A DNA stretch of 18,939 bases. Origin: Pseudonocardiales bacterium (GTDB lineage Bacteria; Actinomycetota; Actinomycetes; Mycobacteriales; Jatrophihabitantaceae). The stretch is taken from the NCBI GenBank assembly GCA_030840415.1, contig JAVEEO010000137.1, forward strand, positions 1-18,939, given 5' to 3'. The notes below the pieces were generated by a model. That model saw only the letters and a list, made by a program, of their open reading frames with translations. It made no database searches and was not told the DNA's origin. A program made the position numbers and the translations under genes. This document shows, piece by piece, positions 4,056-18,939 of the stretch. The first letter of the stretch is position 1. Each line of letters starts with the position of its first letter.

Positions 4056-4065
4056 CGCTGCCGGC

Positions 4066-4281
4066 TCAGGACCAGGCCGAGGCGCGCCATGCGCCGGGAC
4101 CGGGCGGCAGCGGCCGGCGCAGCCGCAGCGCCGGGTCCGCCCAGCCACCGACCTGGTGCGCGGGTTGCGGCCCGGCGGCCCGGGACCGGGCGATCGTCAG
4201 CAGCAGCGCGGTGACGGCGGCCAACTCCTCGGCCGTCGGGTCGCCCGCGGTGATCGAGAACATCGGATCCGAGGTCGTCAT
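4066..4281 (-). CDS. accE: Acyl-CoA carboxylase epsilon subunit
   Basis: Small 71-aa protein of the actinobacterial acyl-CoA carboxylase epsilon family, which binds and stabilises the alpha-beta carboxylase holoenzyme. The N-terminal part [17 protein letters not shown] matches the GxPTxEELAAL helix of the family. The C-terminus [19 protein letters not shown] is the diagnostic epsilon-subunit tail. The ATG at 4281 overlaps the accD stop in an ATGA tetranucleotide, indicating translational coupling to accD. It ends 10 nt from the convergent mtnP stop. This gene is easily missed because it is short. Confidence 0.92.
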
Positions 4282-5930
4282 AGCGGCATGTTGCCGTGCT
4301 TCTTGGGCGGCAGCGTCTGGCGCTTGGTCTTGAGGATCCGCAGCGACTTCACGATCAGCGCCCGGGTCTGCGACGGCGGGATGACGGTGTCGACGTAGCC
4401 CCGTTCGGCGGCCACGTACGGGTTGACCAGGGTGTCCTCGTAGGCGGTGACCAGCTCCGCGCGGCGGGCCTCCTGGGCCGGCAGGTCGTCGGCGAGGGAG
4501 TTGAGCTCCTTGCGGTACAGGATGTTGGCCGCTCCCTGGGCCCCCATCACCGCGATCTGGGCGGTCGGCCAGGCCAGGTTGACGTCGGCGCCCAGGTGCT
4601 TGGACCCCATCACGTCGTAGGCGCCGCCGAAGGCCTTGCGGGTGATCACGGTGATCTTGGGGACGGTGGCCTCGCCGTAGGCGTAGATCAGCTTCGCGCC
4701 GCGCCGGATGATGCCCTGCCACTCCTGGTCGGTGCCGGGCAGGAAGCCCGGGACGTCGACCAGGGTCAGCACCGGCACGTTGAAGGCGTCGCAGGTACGG
4801 ACGAACCTGGCCGCCTTCTCCGAGGCGTCGATGTCCAGGCAGCCGGCGAAGTGCATCGGCTGGTTGCCCACCACGCCGACCGGCTGGCCGTCGATCCGGG
4901 CGAACCCGCAGATGATGTTGGGCGCGAACAGCGCGTGCACCTCGAGGAATTCCTCGTCGTCGACCAGGTGCTCGATCACGGTGTGCATGTCGTAGGGCTG
5001 GTTGGCCGAGTCCGGGATGAAGGTGTCGAGGAACGGGTCGTGGTCGGCCACCGACGGGTCCGCCGGCTCGAAGGCCGGCGGCAGGTCCATGTTGTTGGCG
5101 GGCAGGTAGGACAGCAGCGCCTTGACGTAGTCGATGGCGTCCTGCTCGTCGGCACCGAGGTAGTGGGCGTTGCCGGAGGTGGTGTTGTGCACCCGGGCGC
5201 CACCCAGGTCGTCCATGCTGACGTCCTCGCCGGTGACGGTCTTGATCACGTCCGGGCCGGTGATGAACATCTGCGAGGTGCCCTCGACCATCACCACGAA
5301 GTCGGTGAGGGCGGGGGAGTAGACGTGCCCGCCGGCCGCGGCACCCATGATCAGCGAGATCTGCGGGATCACCCCGGAGGCCTGCACGTTGCGGTAGAAG
5401 ATGTCGCCGTAGAGGCCGAGCGAGACGACGCCCTCCTGGATCCGCGCGCCGCCGCCCTCGTTGATGCCGATCAGCGGGCAGCCGGTCCGCAGCGCGAAGT
5501 CCTGCACCTTGACGATCTTCTCGCCGTAGACCTCGCCGAGCGCGCCGCCGAAGACCGTGACGTCCTGGCTGAACACGCACACCGGGCGGCCGTCCACGGT
5601 GCCGTAGCCGGTGACCACCCCGTCGCCGTACGGGCGATTGGCCTCCAGCCCGAACATGGTGGAGCGGTGCCGGGCCAGTTCGTCGAACTCGACGAACGAG
5701 CCCTCGTCGAGCAGCATGGCGACCCGCTCGCGGGCGGTCTTCTTGCCCCTGGCGTGTTGCTTGGCCACCGCCCGCTCCGAACCGGCGTGTACGGCCTCGT
5801 CGTAGCGGGTCTGCAGCTCAGCGAGCTTGCCGGCGGTGCTGTGCGGGTCGGGACGGCTCTGTGATCCCTGTGGCCCGGGATCGGGCGGGGTTGCCCGGAC
5901 CTCGGCGACCGGATGCAGGTCAGCACTCAT
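4278..5930 (-). CDS. accD: Acyl-CoA (propionyl-CoA type) carboxylase beta subunit
   Basis: Carboxyltransferase (beta) subunit, 550 aa. It transfers CO2 from carboxybiotin on the alpha subunit to acetyl- or propionyl-CoA, giving malonyl- or methylmalonyl-CoA for fatty acid and mycolate-type lipid synthesis. Strong family signatures run along the whole chain: [119 protein letters not shown], and the C-terminus [10 protein letters not shown], almost the same as mycobacterial AccD5. The start at ATG 5930 was chosen over an upstream in-frame start at 6011 that adds 27 unconserved residues. accE follows in an ATGA overlap. birA, which biotinylates the partner alpha subunit, is divergent. The biotin carboxylase subunit itself is not in the window. 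Confidence 0.96.
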
Positions 5931-6042
5931 GAGCGCTGAGCCTAGCCCGAGGGGTAGCCGCCCAGCTTGCGGAGTGACCGACCTCGCGGCCGGCTCGGGA
6001 GAATGCGGCACGCGGCAGGCCGGCCGGGGTCAGAATGAGGCC
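5931..6042. promoter_or_regulatory. Divergent accD / birA promoter region
   Basis: This 112-bp gap must hold promoters for both genes. On the - strand TAGGCT (5939-5944) sits 8 nt from the accD ATG; on the + strand CAGAAT (6031-6036) sits 6 nt before the birA ATG. Both positions fit -10 boxes of leaderless transcripts, common in actinobacteria, but neither has a clear -35 box. birA also has GAGG only 2 nt from its ATG, too close to be a good ribosome-binding site. The promoter calls are inference. Confidence 0.35.
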
Positions 6043-6885
6043 ATGACGCAGCCGGTGGAGCAGTCCAGGCGCCCGCTGGACGCCGACGCGGTGACCGCGC
6101 GGCTGGCCGGCCGGTGGCTGGTCGAGACGGTGGCCGAAACCGGTTCCACCAACGCCGACCTGCTCGCCGCGGCGGCCACCGGCGCGCCGGCCGGCACGGT
6201 GCTGGTGGCCGAGCTGCAGTCCGGCGGCCGGGGCCGGCTGGGCCGGAGTTGGATCTCACCCGCCGGTGCCGGCCTGACCTGTTCGATGCTGCTGCGGCCG
6301 GCGCCCCCGGTGCCGACCTGGGGCTGGCTGCCGCTGCTGACCGGCCTCGCGCTGTCGCGCACCCTCGGTTCGGCGGCCCGGTTGAAGTGGCCCAACGACG
6401 TGCTGTTCGGGGCCGGCGGTGGCAAGGTGGCCGGCATTCTGGTGCAGTCCGGCGACCTGGCGCAGGGCGAAGGCCTGGTGGAAAACGCCGGCCGGGGTGC
6501 GGTGGTGGTCGGACTGGGCCTGAACGTTTCCACCGGCCGGGACGAGCTGCCGGTCGAGACGGCCACCTCGCTGCTGCTGCAGGGCCATCGCGAGCTGGAC
6601 CGCGCCGAGTTGCTGGTCGCCTTCCTGAGCCGCTTCGACGGCCTCTACACCGGGTGGCAGGCCCACGGTGGCGACGCGCTGGCCAGTGGGTTGGCCGAGG
6701 GTTACCGGGCCGGCTGCGCGACGCTGGGCACCGAGGTGTCGGTCGAGCTCGGCAACCGCACCCTGCTCGGCACGGCGGTGGACGTCGACGTCGACGGACG
6801 GCTGCGGGTGCGCCCGGTCGATGGCGGGACTCCGGTGGCGATCGCTGCCGGAGACGTGACGCATGTGCGAAGAAATATTCGCTAA
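6043..6885 (+). CDS. birA: Biotin--[acetyl-CoA-carboxylase] ligase (class I, no HTH)
   Basis: Biotin protein ligase, 280 aa. It makes biotinyl-5'-AMP and attaches biotin to the carrier lysine of acyl-CoA carboxylase alpha subunits. Catalytic motifs in order are ETGSTNADL (32-40), the biotinyl-AMP loop GGRGRLGRSW (61-70), KWPNDVLF (115-122) with KVAGIL (128-133), and VVVGLGLNVS (154-163), followed by the C-terminal SH3-like domain. There is no N-terminal helix-turn-helix, so it is monofunctional and not a bio repressor. The ATG at 6043 was preferred over an in-frame extension to 5827 that overlaps accD and lacks similarity. It is divergent from accD-accE, whose complex needs its product. The PH-domain gene follows 46 nt downstream on the same strand, as in mycobacteria (Rv3279c-Rv3278c). 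Confidence 0.95.
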   Translation: MTQPVEQSRRPLDADAVTARLAGRWLVETVAETGSTNADLLAAAATGAPAGTVLVAELQSGGRGRLGRSWISPAGAGLTCSMLLRPAPPVPTWGWLPLLTGLALSRTLGSAARLKWPNDVLFGAGGGKVAGILVQSGDLAQGEGLVENAGRGAVVVGLGLNVSTGRDELPVETATSLLLQGHRELDRAELLVAFLSRFDGLYTGWQAHGGDALASGLAEGYRAGCATLGTEVSVELGNRTLLGTAVDVDVDGRLRVRPVDGGTPVAIAAGDVTHVRRNIR

Positions 6886-6931
6886 CGTGCACCCAACATG
6901 TTGTGCTGCCTGACCGCAGGGGGTTGTCGGA

Positions 6932-7465
6932 ATGCCGTATCCGGAGAAGTTGCTCAACACCGACGAGGAGATCGTCGAGCACCTGCACCCGCACTGGCTG
7001 ACCCTGGTCCCGGCGGTGCTTGCCTTCCTGGTGGTCTGTGGCCTGTCCGGGCTCGGCTTCGCCTTCCTGCCCGACGGCAACGACAACAACACCGCTCGGC
7101 AGGCCCTGCTGCTGGCGATCGTGGTGGTCGCGCTGGCACTGCTGGCCTGGCTGACGCTGGCCCCGCTGATCCGCTGGCGGTCCACCCACTACGTCATCAC
7201 CACCCGCCGGGTGCTGATCCGGCGTGGCGTGTTCAAGCACGTGGGACGCGACATCACGCTCGGCCGGATCAGCGACGTGGCCTACGAGCAGAGCCTGTGG
7301 GACCGGATCTTCCGGTCCGGCACCCTGCACATCGAGTCGGCCGGTGAGAACGGCCAGGAGACGCTGGTCAACATCCCCCGGGCCAACGACGTGCAGCAGA
7401 CCCTGAACCGGTTGATCGAGGCCGACTCCAACCGGCGCGAGTACCCGCGGCCGTCCGCGGGCTGA
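6932..7465 (+). CDS. PH domain-containing membrane protein
   Basis: A 177-aa integral membrane protein with two predicted transmembrane helices (about residues 22-45 and 58-80). A bacterial PH (YdbS/bPH2-like) domain follows, starting at THYVITTRRVLIRRGV and continuing through DITLGRISDVAYEQSLWDRI to GTLHIESAGENGQ. The molecular role of this family is unknown. The ATG has a GGGGG ribosome-binding site 8 nt upstream (6919-6923). Its place directly after birA matches the mycobacterial gene Rv3278c. A 10-bp palindrome (caacatgttg, 6894-6903) lies in the gap behind birA and may be incidental. The gene ends just before the GGGTTGGG tandem repeat array and is convergent with the coiled-coil genes. 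Confidence 0.88.
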   Translation: MPYPEKLLNTDEEIVEHLHPHWLTLVPAVLAFLVVCGLSGLGFAFLPDGNDNNTARQALLLAIVVVALALLAWLTLAPLIRWRSTHYVITTRRVLIRRGVFKHVGRDITLGRISDVAYEQSLWDRIFRSGTLHIESAGENGQETLVNIPRANDVQQTLNRLIEADSNRREYPRPSAG

Positions 7466-7473
7466 CCGCTGCC

Positions 7474-7593
7474 GGGTTGGGCCAGTCGGTCGGGTTGGGC
7501 CAGTCGGTCGGGTTGGGCCAGTCGGGTTGGGCCAGCCGGGTTGGGCCAGTCGGGTTGGGTCAGTCGGGTTGGGCCAGTCGGGTTGGGTCAGTC
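7474..7593 (+). repeat. Eight-unit GGGTTGGGCCAGTC tandem repeat, G-quadruplex-like
   Basis: Two 18-bp units (gggttgggccagtcggtc, 7474-7491 and 7492-7509) are followed by six 14-bp units of gggttgggccagtc with C/T variants (7510-7593). Each unit carries two GGG tracts, so any two adjacent 14-bp units fit the GGG-N(1-7) four-tract rule for G-quadruplexes on the + strand. The array lies between two convergent genes, and its last unit supplies the stop codon (7588-7590) of the DivIVA-domain gene. Confidence 0.92.
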
Positions 7594-8649
7594 GGGAACG
7601 GCCTGCGGGGCAGCAGGCTGCCCGGTGGTGGTTGCTCCAGCGGTGATCGGTCCGGCAGGCCCCGCAATCGCCTCGACTGGTCCGGCTGGTTCGATCTCCT
7701 CGGCTGCGGGCGGAGCGCCGCCGGACGAGTCGGCCACCTTCCCGTCGCCGCACGCAACGGCGGGCGCCGTGCTGGCCGGGCCGGTGCCGGTCAGCGTCGC
7801 GAGCATCTGCCGGACGTTGGCCAACTGCACGTTGATGCTGTCCCGGCGCTGGGTGGCGGCGCTGAGCTCGCGTTCGGAATCCGAGCGGATCCGGTCCGCC
7901 CGCGCGACCGCCTCGACGAGAAGCTGCTCGGCCTTCTGCTCGGCGTCGGCGATCAGGGCGGCGGCCTGGCGGGTCGCCTCGGCCGCGGTCTGCTCGGTCT
8001 CCGCCCGCAGCAGCTCGGCGTGTTCGCGGGTGATGCTCAGCTGCCGCTCGGCGATCGCGGTGCGCTGGGTCAGGTCGAGCTCGGCCTTGTTCCGGCGCTG
8101 CGCGAGGGCCTGCTCGAAGTCGTTGGCGGCCTGTGCCGCCTGGGCGCGCTGGCCCTCGTAGATCGCCTCGGCCTCGGCCCGGCGGGCGGTGGCGTGCCGG
8201 TTGGCCTCGTCGACGATCTGGTCGGCGCCACGCCTGGCCTCGTCCAGGATGCGGGCCGCGTCCCGGTCCGCGGCGATCCTGGCCTGCTCGGCGTACCGGT
8301 CAGCCTCGGCCATGGTGCGGGCGCTGGTGGCGTCCAGCTCGAGCAGCCGGCGGTTCACCTCGGCCGCCGCCGCGGCGCGCAGCTCGTCGGCCTCCTCGTT
8401 GGCCAGCGTCAGGATCTGCCCGATCCGCGCGCCGAGCTGGGTGTAGGTCGGTTCGTGCGGAGCCGCTCCGGCATTCTGCTGGGCAGCCGCCTGGGCGGCG
8501 GTCAGCTCCTCGATCCGGGTTGCCAGTTGCTCGGCCTGCTGTTCGGCAGCGTCCTTGGCAGCGGTCAGCTCAGCCAGCCGCCGGTCGACCTCGGCGGGTT
8601 CGTAGCCGCGCATTACCGTCCGGAAAGCCTCGTTGCTGTTCTGGATCAT
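7588..8649 (-). CDS. DivIVA-domain coiled-coil protein
   Basis: A 353-aa, alanine/glutamate-rich, almost wholly helical coiled-coil protein. Near the N-terminus FRTVMRGYEPAEVDRRLAEL (residues 9-28) matches the DivIVA membrane-curvature and polar-targeting domain signature (RGYdpaEVD). A coiled coil spans about residues 25-285 and a low-complexity Ala/Pro/Gly tail follows. Such proteins scaffold cell poles or septa in actinobacteria (Wag31, FilP and Scy types). The ATG at 8649 is supported by two in-frame TGA stops 9 nt upstream. The first 80 nt overlap the end of the preceding gene in another frame, so translation is likely coupled. The stop codon lies inside the G-rich tandem array, so the C-terminal residues may have changed as the array moved. 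No enzymatic function is seen. Confidence 0.82.
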   Translation of the reverse strand: MIQNSNEAFRTVMRGYEPAEVDRRLAELTAAKDAAEQQAEQLATRIEELTAAQAAAQQNAGAAPHEPTYTQLGARIGQILTLANEEADELRAAAAAEVNRRLLELDATSARTMAEADRYAEQARIAADRDAARILDEARRGADQIVDEANRHATARRAEAEAIYEGQRAQAAQAANDFEQALAQRRNKAELDLTQRTAIAERQLSITREHAELLRAETEQTAAEATRQAAALIADAEQKAEQLLVEAVARADRIRSDSERELSAATQRRDSINVQLANVRQMLATLTGTGPASTAPAVACGDGKVADSSGGAPPAAEEIEPAGPVEAIAGPAGPITAGATTTGQPAAPQAVPD

Positions 8650-10186
8650 TGGCCGCTCTCATCATCTGCTCGAGTAGGAAGCTGCTCTCGGAATCCTCTG
8701 GGTCGTGGGCATCGTGGGCATCTGGGTCATGGGCATCTGGGAGATCGGGCACCGACGCGATCGTAGGCTGTTCGGGGAGCAGCCAACTCGGTGCGGGCGC
8801 GATGTCGGCCGGCCCCGCGTCGAACGCCACCGGCTCGACGGCTACCGGCTCGGCTGTCGGAACCAACTGGATGACCGCCGCCGGTTCGGCAGCCGCCGCC
8901 TGTTCCGCAACTGCCCCCAGCGGCCCGGGTAGTGACCCCGGCTCGGCGACTGCCACCAGCGCCGGGCTGTCCGGATCGGCCAGTGCCTCGATCACGCCGG
9001 ACAGCTGGCCGAGTTCGGCGGCGATGGCATCCCGCCGCTCGGTGAGCTCAGCGACCTCGGCACGGGCCTCGGCCAGTACCTGCTGCGCCAGCACCCGCAG
9101 GTCCTCGGCCTCGGCGCGAGCGTCGTCGAGCAGCACGCTGGCTTCGGCCTTGGCGGCGCGGCGCAGCTCGTACATCTCGCGCTGTGACTGCCCCACCTGC
9201 TCAGCCACCTGCTCGCGAACCGCGCGGGCGCCGGCCTCGGCCTCGGCGAGCCGCCGCTCGGCGCGGTCGTGATGGCCGGCCGCCACCTGCGCGGCCTCGG
9301 CGATGACCGCCTTGGCCCGCTGCCGCGCGTGGACCAGCACCGCCTCCGATTCCGCGCTCGCCTCGGCGAGCCGGCGGTCGGCGGCGACCGCGGCGGCCTC
9401 GAGGTCGTGCTCCAGCTCGCTGCGCCGCTGCCGCAGCTTCTGCGACGCCGAGGCCAGCACATCGGTGACCCGCAGCCGCACCTGGCGCAGCACCGTGGCG
9501 GCCTCGGCAGCGGCCTGGCTGCGTATCCGGGCAGCCTCCAGGTGCGCCGCCTCCACCAGCCCGGTGACGACCTGTTGCGCCCAGGCGGTCTGGTCGGCAA
9601 CGGCGGCCAGCTCGCGGGCGGCCTCGCCCCGAGCCGCGTCGAGCAGGCCGGTGGCCTCCTCGGCGGCCAGCTGCAGCCGGGTCCTGGTTTCGCGCTCGGC
9701 CTGGTCGAGGCGATCCTGGGCGGCGCCGAGCAGCAGCGCTGCCTGGTGCTGGGCCTGGTCGAGGACCGTCGCGGCATGCTGGTCGGCGGCGGTGCGGACC
9801 ACCGCGGCCTCGGCCTGGGCGTCGGCCTGCAGCTCGCGCAGCTCGACCTCGTGTTCGTTCCAGGACCGGGTGAGATCGGCGGCCAGGCTGGCATGCCGCT
9901 GGTCGGCCTCCCGCTGGGCGCCGAGCAGGATCTGTTCGGCCTGGGCCCGGAACGCGGTAGCGGTCAACCTGGCCTGGGAGCGCTCCTGCTCGGCCTCGAT
10001 CCGGGCTTCGGCCAGCATCAGCTCGGCTGCCTGCTCGGCGGCGGCGGCGACCAGCATCGCCTGGTTGGTGGCGTCGCGGATCAGGGACTGTGCCTCGTCG
10101 TGGGCCTCGGCCAACCGGGCCCGGGCAGAGGCCAGCTGATGCTGGGCGGCAGCCAGGGCCTGCTCGGTTGCCGCGTCCTCCTGCAT
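8570..10186 (-). CDS. Long alanine-rich coiled-coil protein (polar scaffold-like)
   Basis: A 538-aa protein made mostly of alanine-rich coiled coil (about residues 5-390) with repeated A-x-x-E-A patterns. A Pro/Ala-rich linker follows, then a short Asp/His-rich stretch (DAHDPDAHDAHDP) encoded by a 9-bp tandem repeat around 8704-8736. It has no transmembrane segment or signal peptide. The composition resembles Scy- or FilP-like cytoskeletal organisers of actinobacteria, and the next gene encodes a shorter DivIVA-domain coiled coil, echoing the scy-filP pair of Streptomyces. That is an analogy, not shown homology. The ATG at 10186 is preferred over a GTG at 10222. Neither has a ribosome-binding site, so the message may be leaderless. 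The long antisense open frames across this gene are composition shadows. Confidence 0.75.
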   Translation of the reverse strand: MQEDAATEQALAAAQHQLASARARLAEAHDEAQSLIRDATNQAMLVAAAAEQAAELMLAEARIEAEQERSQARLTATAFRAQAEQILLGAQREADQRHASLAADLTRSWNEHEVELRELQADAQAEAAVVRTAADQHAATVLDQAQHQAALLLGAAQDRLDQAERETRTRLQLAAEEATGLLDAARGEAARELAAVADQTAWAQQVVTGLVEAAHLEAARIRSQAAAEAATVLRQVRLRVTDVLASASQKLRQRRSELEHDLEAAAVAADRRLAEASAESEAVLVHARQRAKAVIAEAAQVAAGHHDRAERRLAEAEAGARAVREQVAEQVGQSQREMYELRRAAKAEASVLLDDARAEAEDLRVLAQQVLAEARAEVAELTERRDAIAAELGQLSGVIEALADPDSPALVAVAEPGSLPGPLGAVAEQAAAAEPAAVIQLVPTAEPVAVEPVAFDAGPADIAPAPSWLLPEQPTIASVPDLPDAHDPDAHDAHDPEDSESSFLLEQMMRAANDPEQQRGFPDGNARLRTRRGRPAAG

Positions 10187-10287
10187 GCCGCAGATAGTCG
10201 CAGAAGTTAGCGCGCTACACACCGTTCGCGGGGCAATGTCGGACCATCTATTCTGCCCTGCGCCGTTTGCTCACACCGAGTCAGCAA
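10187..10287. promoter_or_regulatory. Upstream region of the coiled-coil gene pair
   Basis: About 100 bp between the LysE terminator hairpin and the coiled-coil gene start. It must hold the promoter if the coiled-coil genes are transcribed separately from the upstream operon. No convincing -35/-10 pair was recognised; on the - strand GACTAT lies close to the ATG and could be a weak -10 box. Confidence 0.25.
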
Positions 10288-10328
10288 GGCCTGTCGCAGC
10301 GTCACCAATCCTGCCGCTAGCGACGGCC
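10288..10328 (-). terminator. Hairpin terminator after the LysE-family gene
   Basis: GGCCTGTCGCAGCG (10288-10301) pairs with CGCTAGCGACGGCC (10315-10328) as a 13-bp stem with one bulged base on each side and a 13-nt loop. It begins directly after the stop codon of the exporter gene. Only a weak T-run follows on the - strand (TTGCT), as in many actinobacterial terminators. It marks the likely end of the operon that runs leftwards from 18260. Confidence 0.6.
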
Positions 10329-10952
10329 TCAGACCGTCAATTCGATGACCACCGCGATGGCGAGGGCGGCGAATACCCCGCTGGCGGCCCGGTCCAGCGT
10401 GGTGCGAATGCCCGGCCGCCGACCGAGCAGGTCGCGAGCGCCGCCGGCGGCTACCCCGATGATGGCGTCGACGATCCAGCCGATGGCCTGCATGATCAGT
10501 CCGAGAACGACGAACTGGACGATGATCGAACCGTTGTCGGCATCGACGAACTGCGGCAGGAAGGCCGTGAAGAACAGCGCCATCTTCGGATTGGCGAGGT
10601 TGGTCACGGTGCCCCGCCAGAACATCCGGTGGCCCTCGTCGCGCGCACCGTCCAACTCGTGCTGGCCGGCGCTGCGCCAGGTGTCCCAGGCCAGGTAGGC
10701 CAGGTAGCAGGCGCCCGCCACCCGCAGGGCGGTGGAGATCTCGGGCAGCTTGGTGACCAGGGCTCCGAGGCCGAAGGCGGTGGCCAGCACCCAGACCGTC
10801 ACCCCGGCGCTCACGCCGGTCGCGGCCAGCAGGGCACCCCGCGGGCCGCGCGAGAGACCCGAAGCCATCACGAAGGCCATATCCGGGCCGGGTGCCACGC
10901 AGATGACGAGCACCGCGGCGAGGAAGGGACCGAGGACCGATGCGGTCAGCAC
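10329..10952 (-). CDS. LysE/RhtB family amino-acid exporter
   Basis: A 207-aa, six-helix inner-membrane translocator of the LysE/RhtB superfamily. These proteins export amino acids or small amino-acid-like metabolites by proton exchange. Visible are the N-terminal helix with the PGPDM motif (residues 21-25), the GALLAATGVSAG helix, LRVAGACYLAYLAWDTWR, and the conserved NLANPKMALFFTAFLPQF segment. GTG 10952 is the preferred start because GGGAGGG lies 3 nt upstream; the upstream GTG at 10964 would place that sequence inside the gene. It lies 66 nt after aspartokinase on the same strand and is followed by a terminator hairpin, so it is probably the last gene of the operon. It may export the cluster product or an aspartate-family amino acid; the substrate cannot be read from sequence. 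Confidence 0.87.
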   Translation of the reverse strand: MLTASVLGPFLAAVLVICVAPGPDMAFVMASGLSRGPRGALLAATGVSAGVTVWVLATAFGLGALVTKLPEISTALRVAGACYLAYLAWDTWRSAGQHELDGARDEGHRMFWRGTVTNLANPKMALFFTAFLPQFVDADNGSIIVQFVVLGLIMQAIGWIVDAIIGVAAGGARDLLGRRPGIRTTLDRAASGVFAALAIAVVIELTV

Positions 10953-11018
10953 ATGCCCTCCCACGTCGTCCGAAATACCCGAATCACCTTAACAGCAGGC
11001 TATTGGCACGGCCTGTCG

Positions 11019-12272
11019 TCAGGGTGTCCAGCTGCTGCCGAAGGCGGCGTGCAGGGCGCGTACCACCTGGGGCAGGGTCGCCGAACTGGTGGTCACCGAG
11101 ATCGCCTTGTCCGAGGCCGTCATGGAATAGGTGGGGGTGTCGGCCGCCAGCAGGGCCTGGATGAACTCGGACGTGGTGGTGGGGTCCGAGCGCATCCCCC
11201 TGCCCACCACCGACACCGAGCCGATCTTGTCGTCGTAGCTCAGCGAGCTGAAGTTCAGTGCCTGCTGCGCGCCCTGCAACGCCGCCGTCGCCCGGGGGCC
11301 GTCCTCCCCGGACACCGTCATCGTCACATCGACGGTGCCGGCCACCGGATCGGCCGGGCCGGCATACAGGTCCTCGACCGGCACCCCGACGTCGGTCACG
11401 GTGCGCACCAGCGCGGCGACGCTGTCCGGTCCGGTGTCGGCCACCGCATGCAGGACCACGCTGGCCCGGGAAGGGTTGTGCGCGATTCCCGAGATCACCC
11501 GGCTGAACGGTGATACCTCGCTGTGGTGCTCCCCGTCGCGCCGGGCGCTGATCCAGGTACCGGGTTCCTCCGACATCGAGGAACGGACGTGCAGGATCAC
11601 CTGGCAGTTGCGTGCGTACTCGACGCACCGGTCCAACAACACCTTGCAGCCGTGCGCGGCCAGCTCGAGCATGTCGTCGTAGCAGAGCCAGTCGAGCTTC
11701 ACCGCGTCGGGCACCAGGCGCGGATCGGCGGTGTAGACCCCTGCCACGTCGGTGTATATCTCGCACACCTCGGCTCCGAGCGCTCCGGCCAGCGCGACCG
11801 CGGTGGTGTCCGAGCCGCCCCTGCCGAGCGTCGTGACCTCGCCGGAGCGCTCCGAGACGCCCTGGAAGCCGGCGACCAGGGCGACCTTGCCGGCTGCCAG
11901 CGCCTGCCGTACCTCCTCCGGCTCGACCCTCAGGATCCGGGCGTAGCCATGCACGTCGTCGGTGACGATGCCGGCCCGGGCTCCGGTGAACGACTGGGCG
12001 GCGATGCCGGCGGCGTTGAGGCTGATGGCCAGCAGCGTCATCGAGGTGATCTCACCGGTGGCCAGCAGCAGGTCGTTCTCCCGCGGGTCGGGGGAGTTCG
12101 TCAGCTGCCGGCTGAGTTCGAGCAACTGGTCGGTGGTGTCTCCCATCGCCGAGACCACCACGACGACACGGTGTCCGGCCTCGGCCGCCGCAGCAACCCG
12201 GCGGGTCACCCGGGTGATGGCGTCGAGGTCGGCCAGCGACGAGCCACCGAACTTCTGGACGATCGTGGTCAT
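11019..12272 (-). CDS. lysC: Aspartokinase
   Basis: Aspartate kinase, 417 aa. It phosphorylates L-aspartate to beta-aspartyl phosphate, the first step to lysine, threonine, methionine and related metabolites. The amino acid kinase domain (1 to about 245) has VQKFGGSSLA (5-14), VVVVSAMGDTTDQL (37-50) and GRGGSDTTAVALAGALG (150-166). Two ACT regulatory domains follow (about 262-417), including FSSLSYDDKIGSVSVVGRG. The ATG has a strong GGGAGG site 7 nt upstream. An internal Met233 lies near where beta-subunit starts occur in Corynebacterium and Bacillus, but no ribosome-binding site was verified. It follows the A-T-R gene by 51 nt. In most actinobacteria ask is directly followed by asd (aspartate-semialdehyde dehydrogenase); here a LysE exporter follows instead. 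It could be the sole housekeeping enzyme or a pathway-dedicated copy. Confidence 0.95.
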   Translation of the reverse strand: MTTIVQKFGGSSLADLDAITRVTRRVAAAAEAGHRVVVVVSAMGDTTDQLLELSRQLTNSPDPRENDLLLATGEITSMTLLAISLNAAGIAAQSFTGARAGIVTDDVHGYARILRVEPEEVRQALAAGKVALVAGFQGVSERSGEVTTLGRGGSDTTAVALAGALGAEVCEIYTDVAGVYTADPRLVPDAVKLDWLCYDDMLELAAHGCKVLLDRCVEYARNCQVILHVRSSMSEEPGTWISARRDGEHHSEVSPFSRVISGIAHNPSRASVVLHAVADTGPDSVAALVRTVTDVGVPVEDLYAGPADPVAGTVDVTMTVSGEDGPRATAALQGAQQALNFSSLSYDDKIGSVSVVGRGMRSDPTTTSEFIQALLAADTPTYSMTASDKAISVTTSSATLPQVVRALHAAFGSSWTP

Positions 12273-12323
12273 CGGGGCCTCCCTTCCCGGTTGGCGGCCG
12301 AATGCGTGCTTCCTGCCCGCCGC

Positions 12324-15300
12324 TTACTTCCTGGTGACGGCGGCCGCACCGCGACACCACCTCTGGAGCACGGTCGTGTCGATGTCGGGCCACCGGAGCC
12401 CCAGTTCGTCGCAGCGCGCGAGGAAATTGCGACGGAAGGCCGGCGACGTCGAGGTGAAGAACTGGTCGGCCAGCGGCGCGAACTCGTCCTCGGGCTGTTC
12501 GGGCAATACGAGTGCGAGCTTGCGCACTGCCTCCGGAGCCGCCTCGTTACTCGCTTCCTCCTGCAGCAGCTGCCAGAACTCGGGGTACTTGACCTCGGTG
12601 AGTCCGGCTGTCGTGCTCAGCTGGTCGAGCACCTCGTCCAGCGGGAGATCGCGCATGCCCGCGACGTGGTAGCAGCTGCCGGACGGATTTGCCGGCGACG
12701 GCTCGGCAACCGCTCGCGCGATGAAGTCAGCCACTGCCTCGACCGGGCTGAAGTCGCTGACGGCCCCGGTGTGCACCCCGACCCCGAGCCGGCCGCAGCT
12801 CTCCAGGAGCATCTCGGTCAAGCTGCCGGTGTGGCTGACGATGCCGGTCCGGGTGTGCGGCATCACCTCGCCGAGCCGATAGATGTCGACCGGCAGTCCC
12901 TGCTCGCGAGCCGCCGTCAGCAGCCGCTCGGCGCACCACTTGCTCTGGCTGTAGCCGTCGCCCGGCAGGTTCTCCTCGACGAGGCAGGTGTCCTCGTCCA
13001 CCGCCGTCGCGCGCGGCAGCACGCTGAGCGTGGACAGGTGATGGATGGCCTTCGGACGCCCGCGGCGGGCCAGCTCGATCAGGGTTCGCACGCTGGTCAC
13101 GTTCGTCGCCCGCAGTTTCGGGTACGGCGTCACCAGGTTCACCTGAGCGCCCGAATGGACGATCGCGTCGACGCTGTCGGCCAGCTCGGCGAAGCGCTCG
13201 TCGGTCAGCCCCCACCGCGGCAGGGCCAGGTCGCCGACCTCGATCCGGACCCGGGGGTCGGAGAGCGCGTCCGCCAGCTGGTAGTAGTCCAGCCGCGAGC
13301 CCAGTAGATCCACGGCCGCCTGCCGATCCTCCGCGCGCACCAGGCAGCTGATGGTGGCCGAGGTGCGGCGCAGCAGCGCCTGCAGCAAGTAGCTGCCGAT
13401 GAAGCCGGTAGCGCCGGTCAGCAGGATGGATCCCGGTGGGACGGCCGGTGCGGGTCGCTGTTGCGACCACGCGTCCAGCCACTGGTCGGCGAGTACCTGG
13501 TCAGCGGGGTCCGGCGCCTGCTCACCGTCGGACTCCAGCAGCGCTGTCAGGGCTGCCACCGTCGGGTTGTGGACGACGTCGCGCACCGTGATCGGTCGCC
13601 CGAACGCGCCGCGCAGGCTGAGGGCGAGTCGCTGGGCCGACAGCGAGGTGCCGCCGAGGTCGAAGAACGACGCGCCGGCATCGCGGCCGGTGCTGGGCAG
13701 CACCTCGGCCCACAGTTGCTCGACCCGGGCCTGTACCCCGGTCACCGCGGTCCGGCTCTCCTGCCCGGCTTCGGCCTGCCGGACAGCGGCAGCCAGGGCG
13801 CGCCGGTCGGCCTTGCCGTTCGGCGACAGCGGCAACCGGTCCAGCCGGACGAAGCGGTCGGGCACGAACTCCGGCGGCAACACCGCGCGGGCGGCGTCGA
13901 GCAGGTCCGCGGTCACCGGCCGGTCGCTGACCACTGCGGCGATCAGTTGGGCGCGGTCCAGCTCACCGTCGGCGAAGACCTTGACCTCGCGGATGCCCGG
14001 CAGCCGGATCAAGGCATCCTCGACCTCGGTCGGCTCGATCCGCACGCCCCGCAGCTTGATCTGGTCGTCGGCGCGACCGATGAAGTACAGCAGGCCGTCC
14101 TCGCGGAACTGTCCCAGGTCGCCGGTGCGGTACAGCCGCTCGCCGGCAACGTCGGAGAACGGGTTGTCGAGAAAGCTGCGCGCGGTTCTCTCCGGGTCGG
14201 CGAGGTAGCCGTAGCCCACGCAGTCGCCGCCGATCAGCAGCTCCCCGGTCCGGCCCGGGCCGAGCGGGTTCAGCTCCTCGTCCACCACCAGTACCGAGGT
14301 GTTGTCGATCGGCCGGCCGATCGGGATCTCGTGACCGTCGGGAGGAGGTTCGCCGAAGGTGTGGAAGACGCTGCCGATGGAGGCTTCGGTCGGGCCGTAG
14401 GTGTTGGTGAACTCGACGTGCGGCAGCACCTCGTGAAACCGGCGCACCGCCGCGACGTTGATCGCCTCGCCGCCGAGCAGCACCCGGCGCAGGCTGGCGG
14501 CCTGCCGGGTCAGCCCGGCGTCGGAGTGGAGCAGATCGGCCAGTACCGCGAAGATCGACGGCACGAAGTCGGTGATGGTGACGCCGTGCCGGCCGATCTG
14601 GTGCACGGTCTGTTCGAGGTCGAGCAGGCCTTCGCGCACCGGCATCACCACGGTGCCGCCCGAGGTCAGCGGCCAGAGCAGTTGCCACAGCGACGAGTCG
14701 AACACCGAGCGGCTGTTCTGCAGGGCGACGTGCCCGCCGCCGAACATCCGGGTCATGGTGGTGAAGCGGTTCAGCAGGCCGCGGTGGTGGTTGAGCGTGC
14801 ACTTGGGCAGCCCGGTGGTACCGGAGGTGAAGAAGCCGTAGAAGATGTCAGGCCGTGCCGGACGCGCCACGTCGGGCCGCTCGGCCGCCCCGGTCAGCTT
14901 CGCGGCGTCGATCTCGATCCGGCGCCCGGCCGCACCGGCCGAGGCGGGCGTGCGTGGGCTGGCCACCAGCAGGTCGGTTCCCAGCGTTGCCAGCAACGCG
15001 GTGGTGCGATCGGTGGGCCAGCGGGAATCCATCGGCACGAACGGAATGCCGGCCTTCATCGCGGCCACGATGGTCAACGGCAGCTCCAGGCCGTCGGCCA
15101 CCAGCAACGGCAGCAGCCGGCCCGGCTGCGCGCCCTGCTCCAGCAGCATCAAAGCAATCTCGTTCGCCAGCCGGTCCAATTGCGAATAGCTCAGTTGCTG
15201 CTCGCCGAAGATCAGGGCCGGCGCATCCGGGTGGAGCAGGATCTGCCGGTCGATCAGGTCCAGCGTGGTCTGCTCGTCCGGGTAGGGCCGGATCAGGCCG

Positions 15301-15326
15301 GTCAGGGCGTGGCGGGCAATCCTCAC
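12324..15326 (-). CDS. Stand-alone NRPS-like adenylation-thiolation-reductase protein
   Basis: A 1000-aa A-T-R protein with no condensation domain. The adenylation domain (about 15-515) shows A3 FTSGTTGLPKC (166-176; the usual PKG is PKC), A5 NTYGPTE (308-314), A7 YRTGDLG (399-405), A8 GRADDQIKLRG (417-427) and A10 NGKAD with Lys505. The carrier domain has DLGGTSLS with Ser561 as the phosphopantetheine site. The thioester reductase domain (about 632-1000) has LLTGATGFIG (635-644) and the YSQSK catalytic Tyr792/Lys796. It should activate one amino or carboxylic acid, hold it as a thioester and release it with NAD(P)H as an aldehyde or alcohol. A hand alignment to GrsA gives the pocket residues D-S-W-D-L-G-T-I-G-K, which I cannot assign to a substrate. 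The GTG start overlaps the upstream stop as GTGA, so longer in-frame starts are not used. Confidence 0.93.
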   Translation of the reverse strand: MRIARHALTGLIRPYPDEQTTLDLIDRQILLHPDAPALIFGEQQLSYSQLDRLANEIALMLLEQGAQPGRLLPLLVADGLELPLTIVAAMKAGIPFVPMDSRWPTDRTTALLATLGTDLLVASPRTPASAGAAGRRIEIDAAKLTGAAERPDVARPARPDIFYGFFTSGTTGLPKCTLNHHRGLLNRFTTMTRMFGGGHVALQNSRSVFDSSLWQLLWPLTSGGTVVMPVREGLLDLEQTVHQIGRHGVTITDFVPSIFAVLADLLHSDAGLTRQAASLRRVLLGGEAINVAAVRRFHEVLPHVEFTNTYGPTEASIGSVFHTFGEPPPDGHEIPIGRPIDNTSVLVVDEELNPLGPGRTGELLIGGDCVGYGYLADPERTARSFLDNPFSDVAGERLYRTGDLGQFREDGLLYFIGRADDQIKLRGVRIEPTEVEDALIRLPGIREVKVFADGELDRAQLIAAVVSDRPVTADLLDAARAVLPPEFVPDRFVRLDRLPLSPNGKADRRALAAAVRQAEAGQESRTAVTGVQARVEQLWAEVLPSTGRDAGASFFDLGGTSLSAQRLALSLRGAFGRPITVRDVVHNPTVAALTALLESDGEQAPDPADQVLADQWLDAWSQQRPAPAVPPGSILLTGATGFIGSYLLQALLRRTSATISCLVRAEDRQAAVDLLGSRLDYYQLADALSDPRVRIEVGDLALPRWGLTDERFAELADSVDAIVHSGAQVNLVTPYPKLRATNVTSVRTLIELARRGRPKAIHHLSTLSVLPRATAVDEDTCLVEENLPGDGYSQSKWCAERLLTAAREQGLPVDIYRLGEVMPHTRTGIVSHTGSLTEMLLESCGRLGVGVHTGAVSDFSPVEAVADFIARAVAEPSPANPSGSCYHVAGMRDLPLDEVLDQLSTTAGLTEVKYPEFWQLLQEEASNEAAPEAVRKLALVLPEQPEDEFAPLADQFFTSTSPAFRRNFLARCDELGLRWPDIDTTVLQRWCRGAAAVTRK

Positions 15327-16060
15327 CGCGGGCTTCCCGTCGTGCTGAGGCTGAAGTCGCGCAGCCGGTGGTAGAAGGGCAGGTGGTACTCGAGGTAGCC
15401 GGCCAGCCGCTCGTCGTTGTCGGTGGTGACGGGGTAGCTGCGTTCGACGGGCTGGAACGTGGTGCTGGCTGCGGCGTCGGCATGCCAGCGATTGGTCGCA
15501 GACCATTCCGGGCGTTCGGCCGGAGTCCAGTTCAGGGTGTCCGGGCGCTCAGCCAGGCCAACCCGCCGGCAGTACTGCGAAACCACGCCGGCCGGGTCGC
15601 GCACCAGCAGGTCGGCGTCGACCACGACCGGTGCGGTACCGGTCTCGCGGTGCACCAGGTCGAAGATCTGGGCCAGGTGCTCGAAGCCGATCTCGTCGCA
15701 GGTCACGTTCGGGTTGAGGGCGAAGTGCGACTCGATCACCCGGCGCGGGTCGCGGATGATGAAGGTGTGCGTCATCTCCAGCAGTTCGGGGTGCCGGGCG
15801 AACAGGTCCGCATGCCGGAATTCGGTCGTCTCCTTGAAGAAGACCGGCTGAGGGCTGTTCCGCAGAAAGGCGATGACCTCGGCCGCGCCGTGCAGCGTGT
15901 GGCTGCCGACCTGGACCGGTAACCCGCTTTCGCAGGCATAGAAGGGTTCGTGGATCAGGCAGAACTCCTCACGTTCGGCCATCATCCGGAAGAACGCCGT
16001 CGACATCGACCGCGGCGCGCTCCACAGTCCCAGGGGCGCCGCGGTGGTTACCTCGGCCAT
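15323..16060 (-). CDS. PAPS-dependent sulfotransferase family protein
   Basis: A 245-aa soluble sulfotransferase-fold protein. The 5'-phosphosulfate loop is WSAPRSMST (13-21), of the PRSxST type. The 3'-phosphate binding motif is FIIRDPRRVIES (100-111, with Arg103 and Ser111). FFKETTEF (74-81) and HEPFY (37-41) are also typical of this family. It should transfer sulfate from PAPS to a hydroxyl or amine of a small molecule. The ATG has a GAGGAG site 6-7 nt upstream. It starts 12 nt after the aldo/keto reductase stop and ends in a GTGA overlap with the A-T-R gene, so it is very likely translated together with it. In this context its substrate could be the alcohol produced by the reductases. It is not a carbohydrate sulfotransferase by any visible marker. 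Confidence 0.85.
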   Translation of the reverse strand: MAEVTTAAPLGLWSAPRSMSTAFFRMMAEREEFCLIHEPFYACESGLPVQVGSHTLHGAAEVIAFLRNSPQPVFFKETTEFRHADLFARHPELLEMTHTFIIRDPRRVIESHFALNPNVTCDEIGFEHLAQIFDLVHRETGTAPVVVDADLLVRDPAGVVSQYCRRVGLAERPDTLNWTPAERPEWSATNRWHADAAASTTFQPVERSYPVTTDNDERLAGYLEYHLPFYHRLRDFSLSTTGSPR

Positions 16061-16072
16061 CGTTTCTCCTCG

Positions 16073-17056
16073 TTATTGCGACCATTCGGTCGGTTCGCGG
16101 TCCCAGCGGTGGGCCCGCAAGGTAGTCCTCAGCTGATCGGACAGCGGCTGTCCGTCAGCGCTGGCGATGTTTCGACGCACGTGCTCCGGGCGCCGCATGC
16201 CCGGGATTACCGTTGCCACATCGGGATTGGCGAGGATGAAGCGCAACGCGAGGTCGGCCAGGTTGGTCTCGGGCGGCAGGTCGGCCGTGAGCGCCTCAAC
16301 CTTGGCGACCGAGGACTCCAGGTTCTCGGGAACGAAGTACGAGGCCCGCCAGTCGTCGGCGCTGAAGGTGGTGTCGCGGGTGATCGCCCCGGTCAGCGTC
16401 CCTTCGTCGAAGGGAACCCGGGCGATCACCGCGACGTCGTGCGCGCGGCAGGCCGGGAAGAGACTGTCCTCCGGGGCCTGGTCGAAGATGTTGTAGATCA
16501 CCTGGACGCTGTCGATCAGGCCGCTCTCGACCGCCCGTACCCCGTTCCACGGCTCCCACCGGTTGATGCTGATGCCGATTCCCTCGGCCAGGCCGCCGGA
16601 TCTGATCCGAGCAACCGACTCGAGCCACTCATCGTCGTCGACCCAGGCGTCCTCCCAGACGTGGTACTGGAGCAGGTCCAGGCGGTCCACGCCGAGGTTG
16701 CTGATCGACTTGTCGATGTACTCGGCCACGTAGTCGTAGGGAAACACCTCCGACAGCAGCGAGGCGCGGTTTGACGGCCAGGCGCGGTCCTTCGGCGGCA
16801 CCTTGGTCGCGGCGTAGAGCCGGCGGTCGGGGTTGTCCTTGAGCAGCCGCCCGAGGAGTTGTTCGCTGTGCCCGCGGCCATAGATCCAGGCGGTGTCGAA
16901 GAAGTTGCAACCGAGTTCGACGGCCAGCTGCAGGGCCTCCAGGCTCTGCTCGTCGTCGGCGCCCTGCCAGCCGCCGGGCCCGGCGCCCACGCCCCACATG
17001 CCGTAACCGACTTCGCTGACCGACCAGCCCAGTCGGCCGAAGGTGCGGTTGTCCAT
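16073..17056 (-). CDS. Aldo/keto reductase
   Basis: A 327-aa NAD(P)H-dependent oxidoreductase of the aldo/keto reductase superfamily, with a TIM barrel. The catalytic tetrad is visible as Asp54 and Tyr59 in FFDTAWIYGRGHSE, Lys85 in AATKVPP, and His132 in DLLQYHVWED. The C-terminal cofactor region includes IPGMRRPEHVRRNI. It would reduce an aldehyde or ketone to an alcohol. The ATG has a GGGAGCTGAG ribosome-binding site and lies 4 nt after the stop of the ArgG-like gene; the sulfotransferase follows after 12 nt. A plausible substrate is the aldehyde released by the A-T-R protein, but this is inference from context. Confidence 0.93.
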   Translation of the reverse strand: MDNRTFGRLGWSVSEVGYGMWGVGAGPGGWQGADDEQSLEALQLAVELGCNFFDTAWIYGRGHSEQLLGRLLKDNPDRRLYAATKVPPKDRAWPSNRASLLSEVFPYDYVAEYIDKSISNLGVDRLDLLQYHVWEDAWVDDDEWLESVARIRSGGLAEGIGISINRWEPWNGVRAVESGLIDSVQVIYNIFDQAPEDSLFPACRAHDVAVIARVPFDEGTLTGAITRDTTFSADDWRASYFVPENLESSVAKVEALTADLPPETNLADLALRFILANPDVATVIPGMRRPEHVRRNIASADGQPLSDQLRTTLRAHRWDREPTEWSQ

Positions 17057-17060
17057 TGAC

Positions 17061-18260
17061 TCAGCTCCCGTTCCATGCGCTGGTGGATACGGTCAGTGGG
17101 CCCGACGCCCAGTTGTAACCGGTACCGGCGAACCTGCGTTGGTGAACCACTGTCGCGGCGTGGTCGACGTCCTGGATGGACCGGCCGATCACCGCGCCCT
17201 TGTAGATCTCCAGCTCGATGACGGCGTTCACCAGGCGCGCCATCTCTTCCAGTCCGGCACGCGCCGCGCGGGCCGCCAGGGAATCCGTGGTCGACTCGTA
17301 CACCGATACGCCGACCACCCGCGACAGCGTCCGGCGCAACTCGTCGGCGGCCCGGTCGGTGACCGTCTCGTAGGCCGTGCGGACCGCGGCGGACAGCAGT
17401 TGCATGCCGGGTGATTCGTAGACGCCCCGGCACTTGGTGCCGTTCACCCGGTTCTCGAAGACGTCGACCAGGCCGAGGCCGGATCGGCCGGCGAGCAGGT
17501 TGGCCTGCCGCAGCAGGTCGGCCGGCGGCAGCCGCTCGCCGTCCAACTCGACCGGCCGGCCGTTGGCGATGCCGATCGTCACGGTGACGACGGTGTCGGG
17601 TGCGTCCTCGGGGGCCACGCCCAACTGGCGTGCCAGCGAACGAGGGGTGGTGCGCAGGTCCTCGAGCAGGGCGTCCTCGTGCGAGACGCCGGCCAGGTTG
17701 CCCTCGATGGAGTGCTCGGCGGTGTTGCCGGGCATGGGCACCAGGCCGCGATGCTCGAGGTAGGCGGCCATCGCCGCTCGATCGGGCATCCTCGCCCGCA
17801 TCTCGGAATCGTTCCACGGCGCGAATACCGGTACGCCGGGCAGATAACGCGCGCCATTACGCTCGAAACGCCGCTGGTCATTGCCGCCGCCCACGCAGCC
17901 GTGTGCCAGAACCTCACATTTCGAATCCTGGAATTCCTCGACCAGGCCGGCGACGATGACCTCGCGGGACAGGCTGGTGGTGTTCCAGTACCCGCCGTCG
18001 TAGTGGCCGTCGAACGCGATCAGGTCGAGGGCGGCCGAAGCCATCGCCGGCGCCAGATCCACCGTGTGCACCGGCATTCCGCTGGCTCGCACCGAGTCGA
18101 CGAAGGAGTCGAATTCCTCAGGGGTGCACTGGCCGATGTAACCGGCCAGGCCCACCACGTCGTGCCCGTCCTCCAGCAGTCTCGAGCCGACGGCGAGGCA
18201 GGACAGGCCGCCCGACAAGGCGATGCCGATCCGCCGGCCGAACAGTTCGGAATTGTGCAC
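17061..18260 (-). CDS. Divergent argininosuccinate synthase-like ligase
   Basis: A 399-aa homologue of ArgG, the ATP-dependent ligase that joins citrulline and aspartate. Family landmarks are ALSGGLS (14-20), WNTTSLSREVIVAG (92-105), AHGCVGGGNDQRRFE (119-133), EHSIEGNL (182-189), and GLGLVDVFENRVNG with CRGVYESPG near 300. It departs from true ArgG at key positions: the PP-loop SGGLDTS is SGGLSCL, losing the conserved Asp, and GCTGKGND is GCVGGGND, losing the Thr that helps hold aspartate. The Glu of ENR and Tyr of VYESP that contact citrulline are kept. No argH, argF or argR lies nearby; a biosynthetic operon follows. It is therefore probably a repurposed ligase acting on a ureido or related substrate with another amine. 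The GTG start has a GAGAGGGG site about 8 nt upstream. It heads the operon. Confidence 0.85.
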   Translation of the reverse strand: MHNSELFGRRIGIALSGGLSCLAVGSRLLEDGHDVVGLAGYIGQCTPEEFDSFVDSVRASGMPVHTVDLAPAMASAALDLIAFDGHYDGGYWNTTSLSREVIVAGLVEEFQDSKCEVLAHGCVGGGNDQRRFERNGARYLPGVPVFAPWNDSEMRARMPDRAAMAAYLEHRGLVPMPGNTAEHSIEGNLAGVSHEDALLEDLRTTPRSLARQLGVAPEDAPDTVVTVTIGIANGRPVELDGERLPPADLLRQANLLAGRSGLGLVDVFENRVNGTKCRGVYESPGMQLLSAAVRTAYETVTDRAADELRRTLSRVVGVSVYESTTDSLAARAARAGLEEMARLVNAVIELEIYKGAVIGRSIQDVDHAATVVHQRRFAGTGYNWASGPLTVSTSAWNGS

Positions 18261-18463
18261 GAGTCAGCCCCTCTCGGTGACCTCGTTGTGGCGTGAGTGT
18301 CTGCGCCGTCCCAAATCTGGCCTGTCGACGAAGGCGGAGACAAGCTATTTGTGGAGGCCTGGTGCGATTCGATCCGAAGGTAGTAGGTTTGACTGCAACG
18401 AAAGTGGTACGGCCTGCTTGGCGTAGACAACGCGAGATCGAATACGGACGGGAGGTTGTAGCC
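18261..18463. promoter_or_regulatory. Divergent promoter region of the biosynthetic operon and response regulator
   Basis: This 203-bp gap must carry the promoters of the ArgG-like operon and the response regulator gene. An 8-bp inverted repeat, attcgatc (18367-18374) and gatcgaat (18436-18443), spans the middle and could be a pair of operator half-sites. A TTGACT (18389-18394) resembles a -35 box but has no good -10 partner at 16-18 nt. GGGAGG (18450-18455) is a good ribosome-binding site for the regulator. Promoter positions remain unassigned. Confidence 0.4.
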
Positions 18464-18939
18464 ATGCAGGCCGACGCCCCTTCCACCGTGCTTTTGGGTC
18501 GGGATGCCGCAGGGCCGACTGGCGACACCGTGGGGCTGGTCCTCGTCGTCGACCACGGGTTATTCCTGGCGGGTCTGGCCGAACTGCTCAAGACGGTCGA
18601 GGGCTGCGCCGTGCTGGGCCAGGGGACCGACTGCGACGACGCGGTCGTGCTGGCGCGGGCTCACCGTCCGGACATCGTGATGCTCGATGCCACGGTCACC
18701 GGTCCCAGTGTGGGCACCACCATTAGCCGGATTCTGCGGGAAAGCCCGGAAAGTCGGGTGCTGGTGCTGGGCGCGGAGGACGACCCGGAGATGTTGCGCG
18801 AGGTCGTCGACGCCGGTGCGGCCGGCTTCCTGGCCACCAACGCCGGTCCCGCCGAACTGCTGGCGGCCATCACCTGCGCGCGGCGGGCGGTGGACGGCTT
18901 CGTGTTGGTAGCGTCCCGGGTGACGCTCAGTGCCGTGGT
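18464..18939 (+). CDS. Response regulator with degenerate receiver domain (partial)
   Basis: The gene starts at ATG 18464 (GGGAGG 8 nt upstream) and runs off the window after 158 residues. The visible part is a NarL/LuxR-type receiver domain (about 24-140): LVLVVDHGLFLAGLAELL, then PDIVMLDATVTG with the phospho-acceptor position Asp75, and DAGAAGFLATNAGPAELLAAI. Several switch residues differ from active receivers. The acidic pair before HxLF is Val-Asp in place of Asp-Asp, the conserved Thr/Ser after strand 4 is Gly103 (VLVLGAEDD), and the conserved Lys is Thr125 (FLATN). Asp75 remains. Such atypical receivers in Streptomyces (JadR1 type) respond to ligands instead of phosphate. A C-terminal helix-turn-helix is expected outside the window. 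It is divergent from the biosynthetic operon and is its likely regulator. Confidence 0.82.
   Translation, partial: MQADAPSTVLLGRDAAGPTGDTVGLVLVVDHGLFLAGLAELLKTVEGCAVLGQGTDCDDAVVLARAHRPDIVMLDATVTGPSVGTTISRILRESPESRVLVLGAEDDPEMLREVVDAGAAGFLATNAGPAELLAAITCARRAVDGFVLVASRVTLSAV

Follow-up and report, generated by a model that had tools for sequence, protein, structure and literature searches.

A candidate operon for an amino-acid-like metabolite, built on a conserved four-gene core, in a Pseudonocardiales genome

Gene content and layout of the operon

A stretch of 18,939 nucleotides from a Pseudonocardiales bacterium (GenBank assembly GCA_030840415.1, contig JAVEEO010000137.1; the whole stretch is referred to below as the window) carries an operon of six genes on its minus strand. 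The window is one contig of a 4.14-Mb genome that comprises 569 contigs and has a completeness of 85.6 %. The first gene of the operon encodes an ArgG-like ATP-dependent ligase of 399 aa with the ArgG N- and C-terminal domains (17061..18260). It is followed by genes for an aldo/keto reductase (AKR) of 327 aa (16073..17056; Pfam PF00248), a sulfotransferase of 245 aa of the type that uses 3'-phosphoadenosine 5'-phosphosulfate (15323..16060; PF19798) and a 1000 aa protein in which an adenylation domain, a carrier domain and a thioester reductase domain follow one another (A-T-R; 12324..15326; PF00501, PF00550 and PF07993, with TIGR01746 above its cut-off). The last two genes encode an aspartokinase (AK) of 417 aa, identified by domain match and a second copy in this genome (11019..12272), and an amino-acid exporter of the LysE/RhtB type (10329..10952, or from 10964 in the longest ORF), which matched PF01810 with 112.3 bits against a gathering score of 25.6. 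We put the chances at about even that these genes constitute an uncharacterised operon for a small amino-acid-like metabolite that is reduced, probably sulfated and derived from lysine, and that is made by a core of four enzymes.

A preliminary description of this DNA, made from the sequence, had reported six tightly packed genes on one strand with these domains, and the open reading frames (ORFs) and domain matches agree with it. Spacings in operon order were 4, 12, −4, 51 and 54 nt for the longest ORFs, and the A-T-R start codon is the GTG within a GTGA overlap with the sulfotransferase gene. The 66 nt previously given for the last gap is obtained if LysE starts at GTG 10952; this codon is preceded by GGGAGG, a candidate ribosome-binding site identified by eye, and is the more likely start. 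The other spacings given earlier were reproduced as they stood. A hairpin that had been placed at the end of the operon found no support, the downstream stem being no better than shuffled sequence (z −0.99) and the terminator scan detecting no intrinsic terminator downstream of LysE. No tRNA was detected in the window and no Rfam family reached its gathering score there. Catalytic motifs were intact in the A, T and R domains and in the AKR and sulfotransferase.

Conservation and distribution of the four-gene core

The core was defined as the ArgG-like, AKR, sulfotransferase and A-T-R genes. Thirty relative loci (L numbers) were obtained by searching genome contigs with a 31-member alignment of ArgG-like proteins. 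These loci were chosen by the ArgG-like gene only, leaving the other three core genes free to be absent, and seven of the 30 were cut short by contig ends. The complete core was present in 26 loci, one of them from Vibrio (L024). As selection was by the ArgG-like gene alone, this indicates a grouping of the genes beyond chance. The AKR was absent from L011, L013 and L028, the sulfotransferase from L011, and the A-T-R from L011 and L014. Pairwise distance matrices of the four core proteins, compared without a species-tree control for the window and 25 of the 26 complete loci, were correlated with r of 0.973–0.985, a level reached in none of 2000 permutations. Identity of the Vibrio proteins to those of the window was 33 % for the ArgG-like protein, 55 % for the AKR, 34 % for the sulfotransferase and 30 % for the A-T-R. 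The orientation of the A-T-R gene was reversed in many loci, and this, together with the existence of a Vibrio member, indicates that the core genes move together. The four genes are evidently inherited as a unit, contrary to the outcome named earlier as refuting the grouping, a lack of joint conservation in relatives.

Functional residues of the core enzymes were similarly well conserved. The AKR, which was 55–69 % identical to 25 orthologues, has the tetrad D54, Y59, K85 and H132, and this was kept in 27 of 28 rows of the alignment; the exception was L034, in which the AKR frame appears to be broken (approximately 10300–12970). The sulfotransferase contains SAPRSMSTAF and RDPRRVIESH, which we take to be the 5'-phosphosulfate and 3'-phosphate motifs, respectively, and the core residues of both were invariant in 30 rows. 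A condensation domain is absent from the A-T-R. Motif anchoring gave the specificity code DSWDLGTIGK, shared without change by 26 of 29 proteins; L010, L024 and L028 each depart from it at one position, and the A-T-R substrate is therefore probably the same across the clusters.

The loci fell into two forms. A partner non-ribosomal peptide synthetase (NRPS) module with the code DV[SGF]DFGG[VI]T was found in 21 of the 30, none of which had LysE; in L015 and L018, the two that were scanned, this module consists of condensation, adenylation and carrier domains. No partner module was seen in the remaining nine (L005–L010, L013, L019 and L024), and exactly these nine carry LysE, a split that carries no correction for kinship, with five Streptomyces members among the LysE carriers, and in which L008, L010 and L024 end at contig edges. 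The presence of LysE in part of the relatives, which might be read as weak linkage, is accounted for by this sorting into forms. The window has the LysE form. Genes resembling acyl-CoA dehydrogenases were present in the extended clusters inspected, a thioesterase gene in L018, and an exporter gene of the major facilitator superfamily (MFS) adjoining the AK gene in the three extended clusters scanned (L081, L084 and L086). The presence of LysE suggests a product the size of an amino acid, and the NRPS/MFS form suggests a peptide. The role in export of a small product that LysE had been given earlier is thus favoured by the exact split, and the argument that a lack of condensation domains excludes a peptide fits the clusters with LysE but does not extend to the 21 relatives with a partner module.

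Some loci had further genes of note. The Vibrio locus has, among its core genes (3749–7044), genes for a pyridoxal-phosphate enzyme of Cys/Met metabolism, a gamma-glutamyl-cyclotransferase-like protein and a GFA-domain protein, and a gene for a LuxR-type regulator adjoins the core genes of the Streptomyces locus L005. A single ORF of 2082 aa in L028 (9782–16030) fuses an ArgG-like domain with a degenerate P-loop to condensation, adenylation and carrier domains.

Among the nearest ArgG-like proteins, all those bearing names were from Jatrophihabitans, and the host is probably of this kind. At E 1e-60 the ArgG-like protein was matched in one of 24 genomes of the same family and in three of 394 of the same class, namely the window's own genome, one with a Herbidospora-type cluster (G275) and one (G132) in which the match was an ASS-like gene (ASS, argininosuccinate synthase) without the core within about 9 kb on either side. 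A search of 396 genomes of the phylum with the A-T-R at E 1e-150 matched the window alone and so gave no co-occurrence test from a second anchor. In a genome of the same genus (G406), the flanking genes for MTAP, AccD, BirA, a PH-domain protein and both DivIVA-like proteins occur in the same order, with different genes at the site of the operon. The operon has thus been acquired or lost in a patchy manner.

The ArgG-like enzyme, precursor supply and proposed pathway

The ArgG-like protein has the ArgG fold but scored 202.9 bits against the argG equivalog model TIGR00032, short of the cut-off of 268.2. Its P-loop reads SGGLSCL, where the ASS form is SGGLDTS. The P-loop Asp12 was replaced in all 31 proteins (the 30 loci and the window), by Ser in 29, Thr in L024 and Leu in L028. 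Thr116 (Tt numbering, as for the residues below), which we take to be an aspartate-binding residue of ASS, was Val in all 31, and Lys118 is Gly in the window protein. Tyr84, Asn120, Arg124, Ser173, Ser182, Glu258 and Tyr270, presumably the citrulline ligands, are retained in the window protein; Ser89 is Gly in most relatives. This pattern suggests that the enzyme probably no longer uses aspartate. A separate ArgG-type gene in the same genome, 30 % identical to the ArgG-like one, retains Asp12 and Thr116; its presence and the changed key residues exclude an ordinary ArgG of the arginine pathway. No argininosuccinate lyase was found among the window ORFs scanned.

Two further ArgG-type sequences were recorded during the survey. 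The ArgG-like match in L022 (approximately 9974–11119) includes one reported stop. An ASS-like protein in L089 (9516–10775) retains the P-loop Asp and Thr116, with the window's other proteins absent from the surrounding 19 kb, and possibly represents a separate ASS-derived family.

The window genome contains another AK that is 49 % identical to that of the operon, and among 24 family genomes it was the only one with a second full-length AK (two matches in G397 were fragments). In Corynebacterium glutamicum numbering, the operon AK differs at positions 277, 279, 298, 301 and 374 of the effector site in the ACT domains, all of which are kept in seven of seven housekeeping AKs chosen from the family AK matches. 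Positions 372 and 375 are changed in the operon AK and likewise in the housekeeping AKs, whereas the operon AK retains Asp274 and Ser381. All five of the former positions were changed in the core-linked AK of each of four extended clusters, and in six of the seven AKs compared from the nine of the close operon clade, the seventh (P0248) retaining 277. In C. glutamicum AK, Q298G and A279T are listed among changes that relieve feedback by lysine, the strength of each being uncertain (PMC10464499). The operon AK is, from these residues, probably insensitive to feedback. The possibility that it is the housekeeping copy was excluded by the other AK in the genome and the changed effector-site residues.

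In 16 of the 30 loci, each of them with a partner NRPS module, an additional AK is encoded about 10 kb away from the ArgG-like gene. Second AKs also occur apart from the core, on other contigs in G421 and G422, and G432 has a third AK elsewhere. In the close lineage, five of nine AK matches (identity of at least 57 %) were on contigs equal in size to those bearing A-T-R genes (10789, 7812, 24256, 12628 and 14806), which is indirect evidence that these five AKs share a contig with an A-T-R. The supply of precursor by AK, as first proposed, is made more credible by the extra linked AKs and the changed effector residues. AK and LysE could instead be unrelated passengers beside a pathway consisting of the four-gene core alone. 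They do come after wider gaps (51 and 54–66 nt), and a core-linked AK is absent in 14 of the 30 relatives, though several of those contigs end nearby; with extra AKs near the core in 16 relatives and apparently in the close lineage, with changed effector residues in the cluster-type AKs compared, and with LysE in all nine clusters that lack the NRPS module, we regard this explanation as very improbable.

AK catalyses the opening step of lysine biosynthesis and diaminopimelate decarboxylase (LysA) the final one, and LysE-family proteins export amino acids; lysine is therefore the best common denominator as precursor. A LysA gene is present in the Vibrio locus (498.4 bits against an equivalog cut-off of 297.9) and is a second copy in that genome. 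The same core chemistry may alternatively act on homoserine, threonine or 2,4-diaminobutyrate, with LysE/RhtB exporting a homoserine-like antimetabolite. AK supplies all these compounds, the Cys/Met-metabolism enzyme at the Vibrio locus would fit, and in NCBIfam the exporter gives its best match to the model TIGR00949, which describes homoserine/threonine efflux proteins. However, that match is under the cut-off of the model, the second LysA of the Vibrio cluster leads to lysine, and neither a homoserine dehydrogenase nor an aminotransferase was found among the subset of neighbouring genes that was scanned. A precursor of this kind is possible, though we think it doubtful.

Several observations weigh against the favoured reading of the operon. 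LysA occurs in one of the 30 loci, that of Vibrio; a linked AK occurs in none of the nine LysE-form loci outside the window; lysine-supply genes are missing from all five loci of Streptomyces and from L010, L013 and L019; and AK also feeds threonine, methionine and homoserine. Likeness of the A-T-R to the lysine-activating MxcG was considered as proof of lysine activation and rejected: it stems from the A-T-R layout and is not specific to the adenylation domain, as MxcG dropped to fourth in a control with A and T alone. The adenylation-domain codes of the A-T-R and the partner module were not found in published papers. L013 and L028 have no AKR though the other three core genes are present, and L011 lacks the AKR, sulfotransferase and A-T-R. 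The model of the ArgG-like pocket is of low confidence, with pLDDT below 50 at 186–205 and 265–280.

With lysine retained as the preferred precursor, we infer the following order of steps, sulfonated group, ArgG-like reaction and product. The extra AK, released from feedback, would increase flux into the lysine branch. The A-T-R would activate a basic amino acid of the aspartate family, with L-lysine the likeliest candidate, and the aldehyde freed by the R domain would be converted by the AKR, as such or as its cyclic imine, to an amino alcohol or amine. The sulfotransferase would then sulfonate the resulting hydroxyl. The ArgG-like enzyme would spend ATP on activating a citrulline-like ureido or amide group, followed by formation of a C–N bond or dehydration, and LysE would carry the product out. 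The succession of acid, aldehyde, alcohol and sulfate put forward earlier is a plausible proposal. Sulfate leaves readily when placed beside an amine or guanidine; it may therefore be present only for a time and be missing from the final product, which may be cyclic. A more specific version, which we consider a long shot, is that the core provides a new way of making cyclic guanidines. The A-T-R and AKR would give the vicinal amino alcohol lysinol from lysine, and the ArgG-like enzyme, having lost the contact to the aspartate carboxylate and kept the citrulline site, would join the ureido carbon of citrulline to that amine instead of aspartate, yielding an N-substituted arginine. The sulfotransferase would make the hydroxyl a sulfate leaving group, displacement of which by a guanidine nitrogen would close a 2-aminoimidazoline; the LysE form would export this as a free amino acid and the NRPS form would place it in a peptide.

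Flanking genes and comparison with known systems

Other features of the window lie outside the operon. A large serine recombinase with Resolvase, Recombinase and Zn-ribbon domains is encoded at 22–1176 on the minus strand; its gene lies at the contig edge, next to housekeeping genes, and could be the sign of a mobile element. Two neighbouring, overlapping genes for coiled-coil-like proteins, one matching DivIVA, occupy 7588–10222 on the minus strand and are paired in two other genomes of the genus. The interval from the PH-domain gene to the DivIVA-like gene contains a tandem repeat (7471–7596) with 6.4 copies of the 14-bp unit GTCGGGTTGGGCCA and an 18-bp variant. At 18293–18937 on the plus strand is a divergent gene, incomplete at the contig end, whose product resembles, by eye, a response-regulator receiver.

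The clusters constitute a genuine conserved family for which PMC searches yielded no description. The earlier statement that no described pathway has this combination of genes agrees with those searches, which gave no match among the papers listed (20 of 897 in one search), as judged by title and the opening of the abstract. For genome mining, a set of enzymes that is scattered but co-inherited, and for which the literature searched describes no product, makes an attractive target. Here it would reveal a bacterial relative of ASS repurposed away from aspartate. The supply genes recruited in different lineages (the changed AK and second LysA) point to a precursor, making the product chemically testable. 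If one core does serve amino-acid-sized products in the LysE form and peptides, as seems likely, in the NRPS form, it would also be a helpful example of how pathways evolve in a modular way.

Four known systems invite comparison. ASS itself is predicted to share its fold with the ArgG-like enzyme over most of the length, together with the citrulline-site residues, but differs at P-loop Asp12, Thr116 and Lys118, and the ArgG-like enzyme scores under the argG cut-off. The nitrile synthetase ArtA/NitB of the auranthine pathway is likewise an ASS-like enzyme in specialised metabolism and has fold and profile similarity to the ArgG-like protein, although it is fungal and 17 % identical, and we know of no A-T-R or sulfotransferase partners for it. 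By this analogy the ArgG-like enzyme could be a nitrile or cyanamide synthetase, adenylating the oxygen of an amide or ureido group and then eliminating AMP without a nucleophile, giving a nitrile-bearing, perhaps sulfated, amino-acid derivative; we consider this unlikely. The A-T-R has the order of adenylation, carrier and reductase domains of the myxochelin synthetase MxcG, which is reported to activate lysine, release it as an aldehyde and reduce the aldehyde further (PMC8400222). MxcG condenses acyl groups onto lysine, whereas the window A-T-R has no condensation domain. For aziridines of the azinomycin/ficellomycin type, sulfotransferase-assisted ring closure has been proposed, and amino-carrier-protein chemistry is used. 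Nothing like the amino-carrier-protein system was seen among the window genes scanned, but an amino alcohol and a sulfotransferase could likewise place a sulfate leaving group beside an amine.

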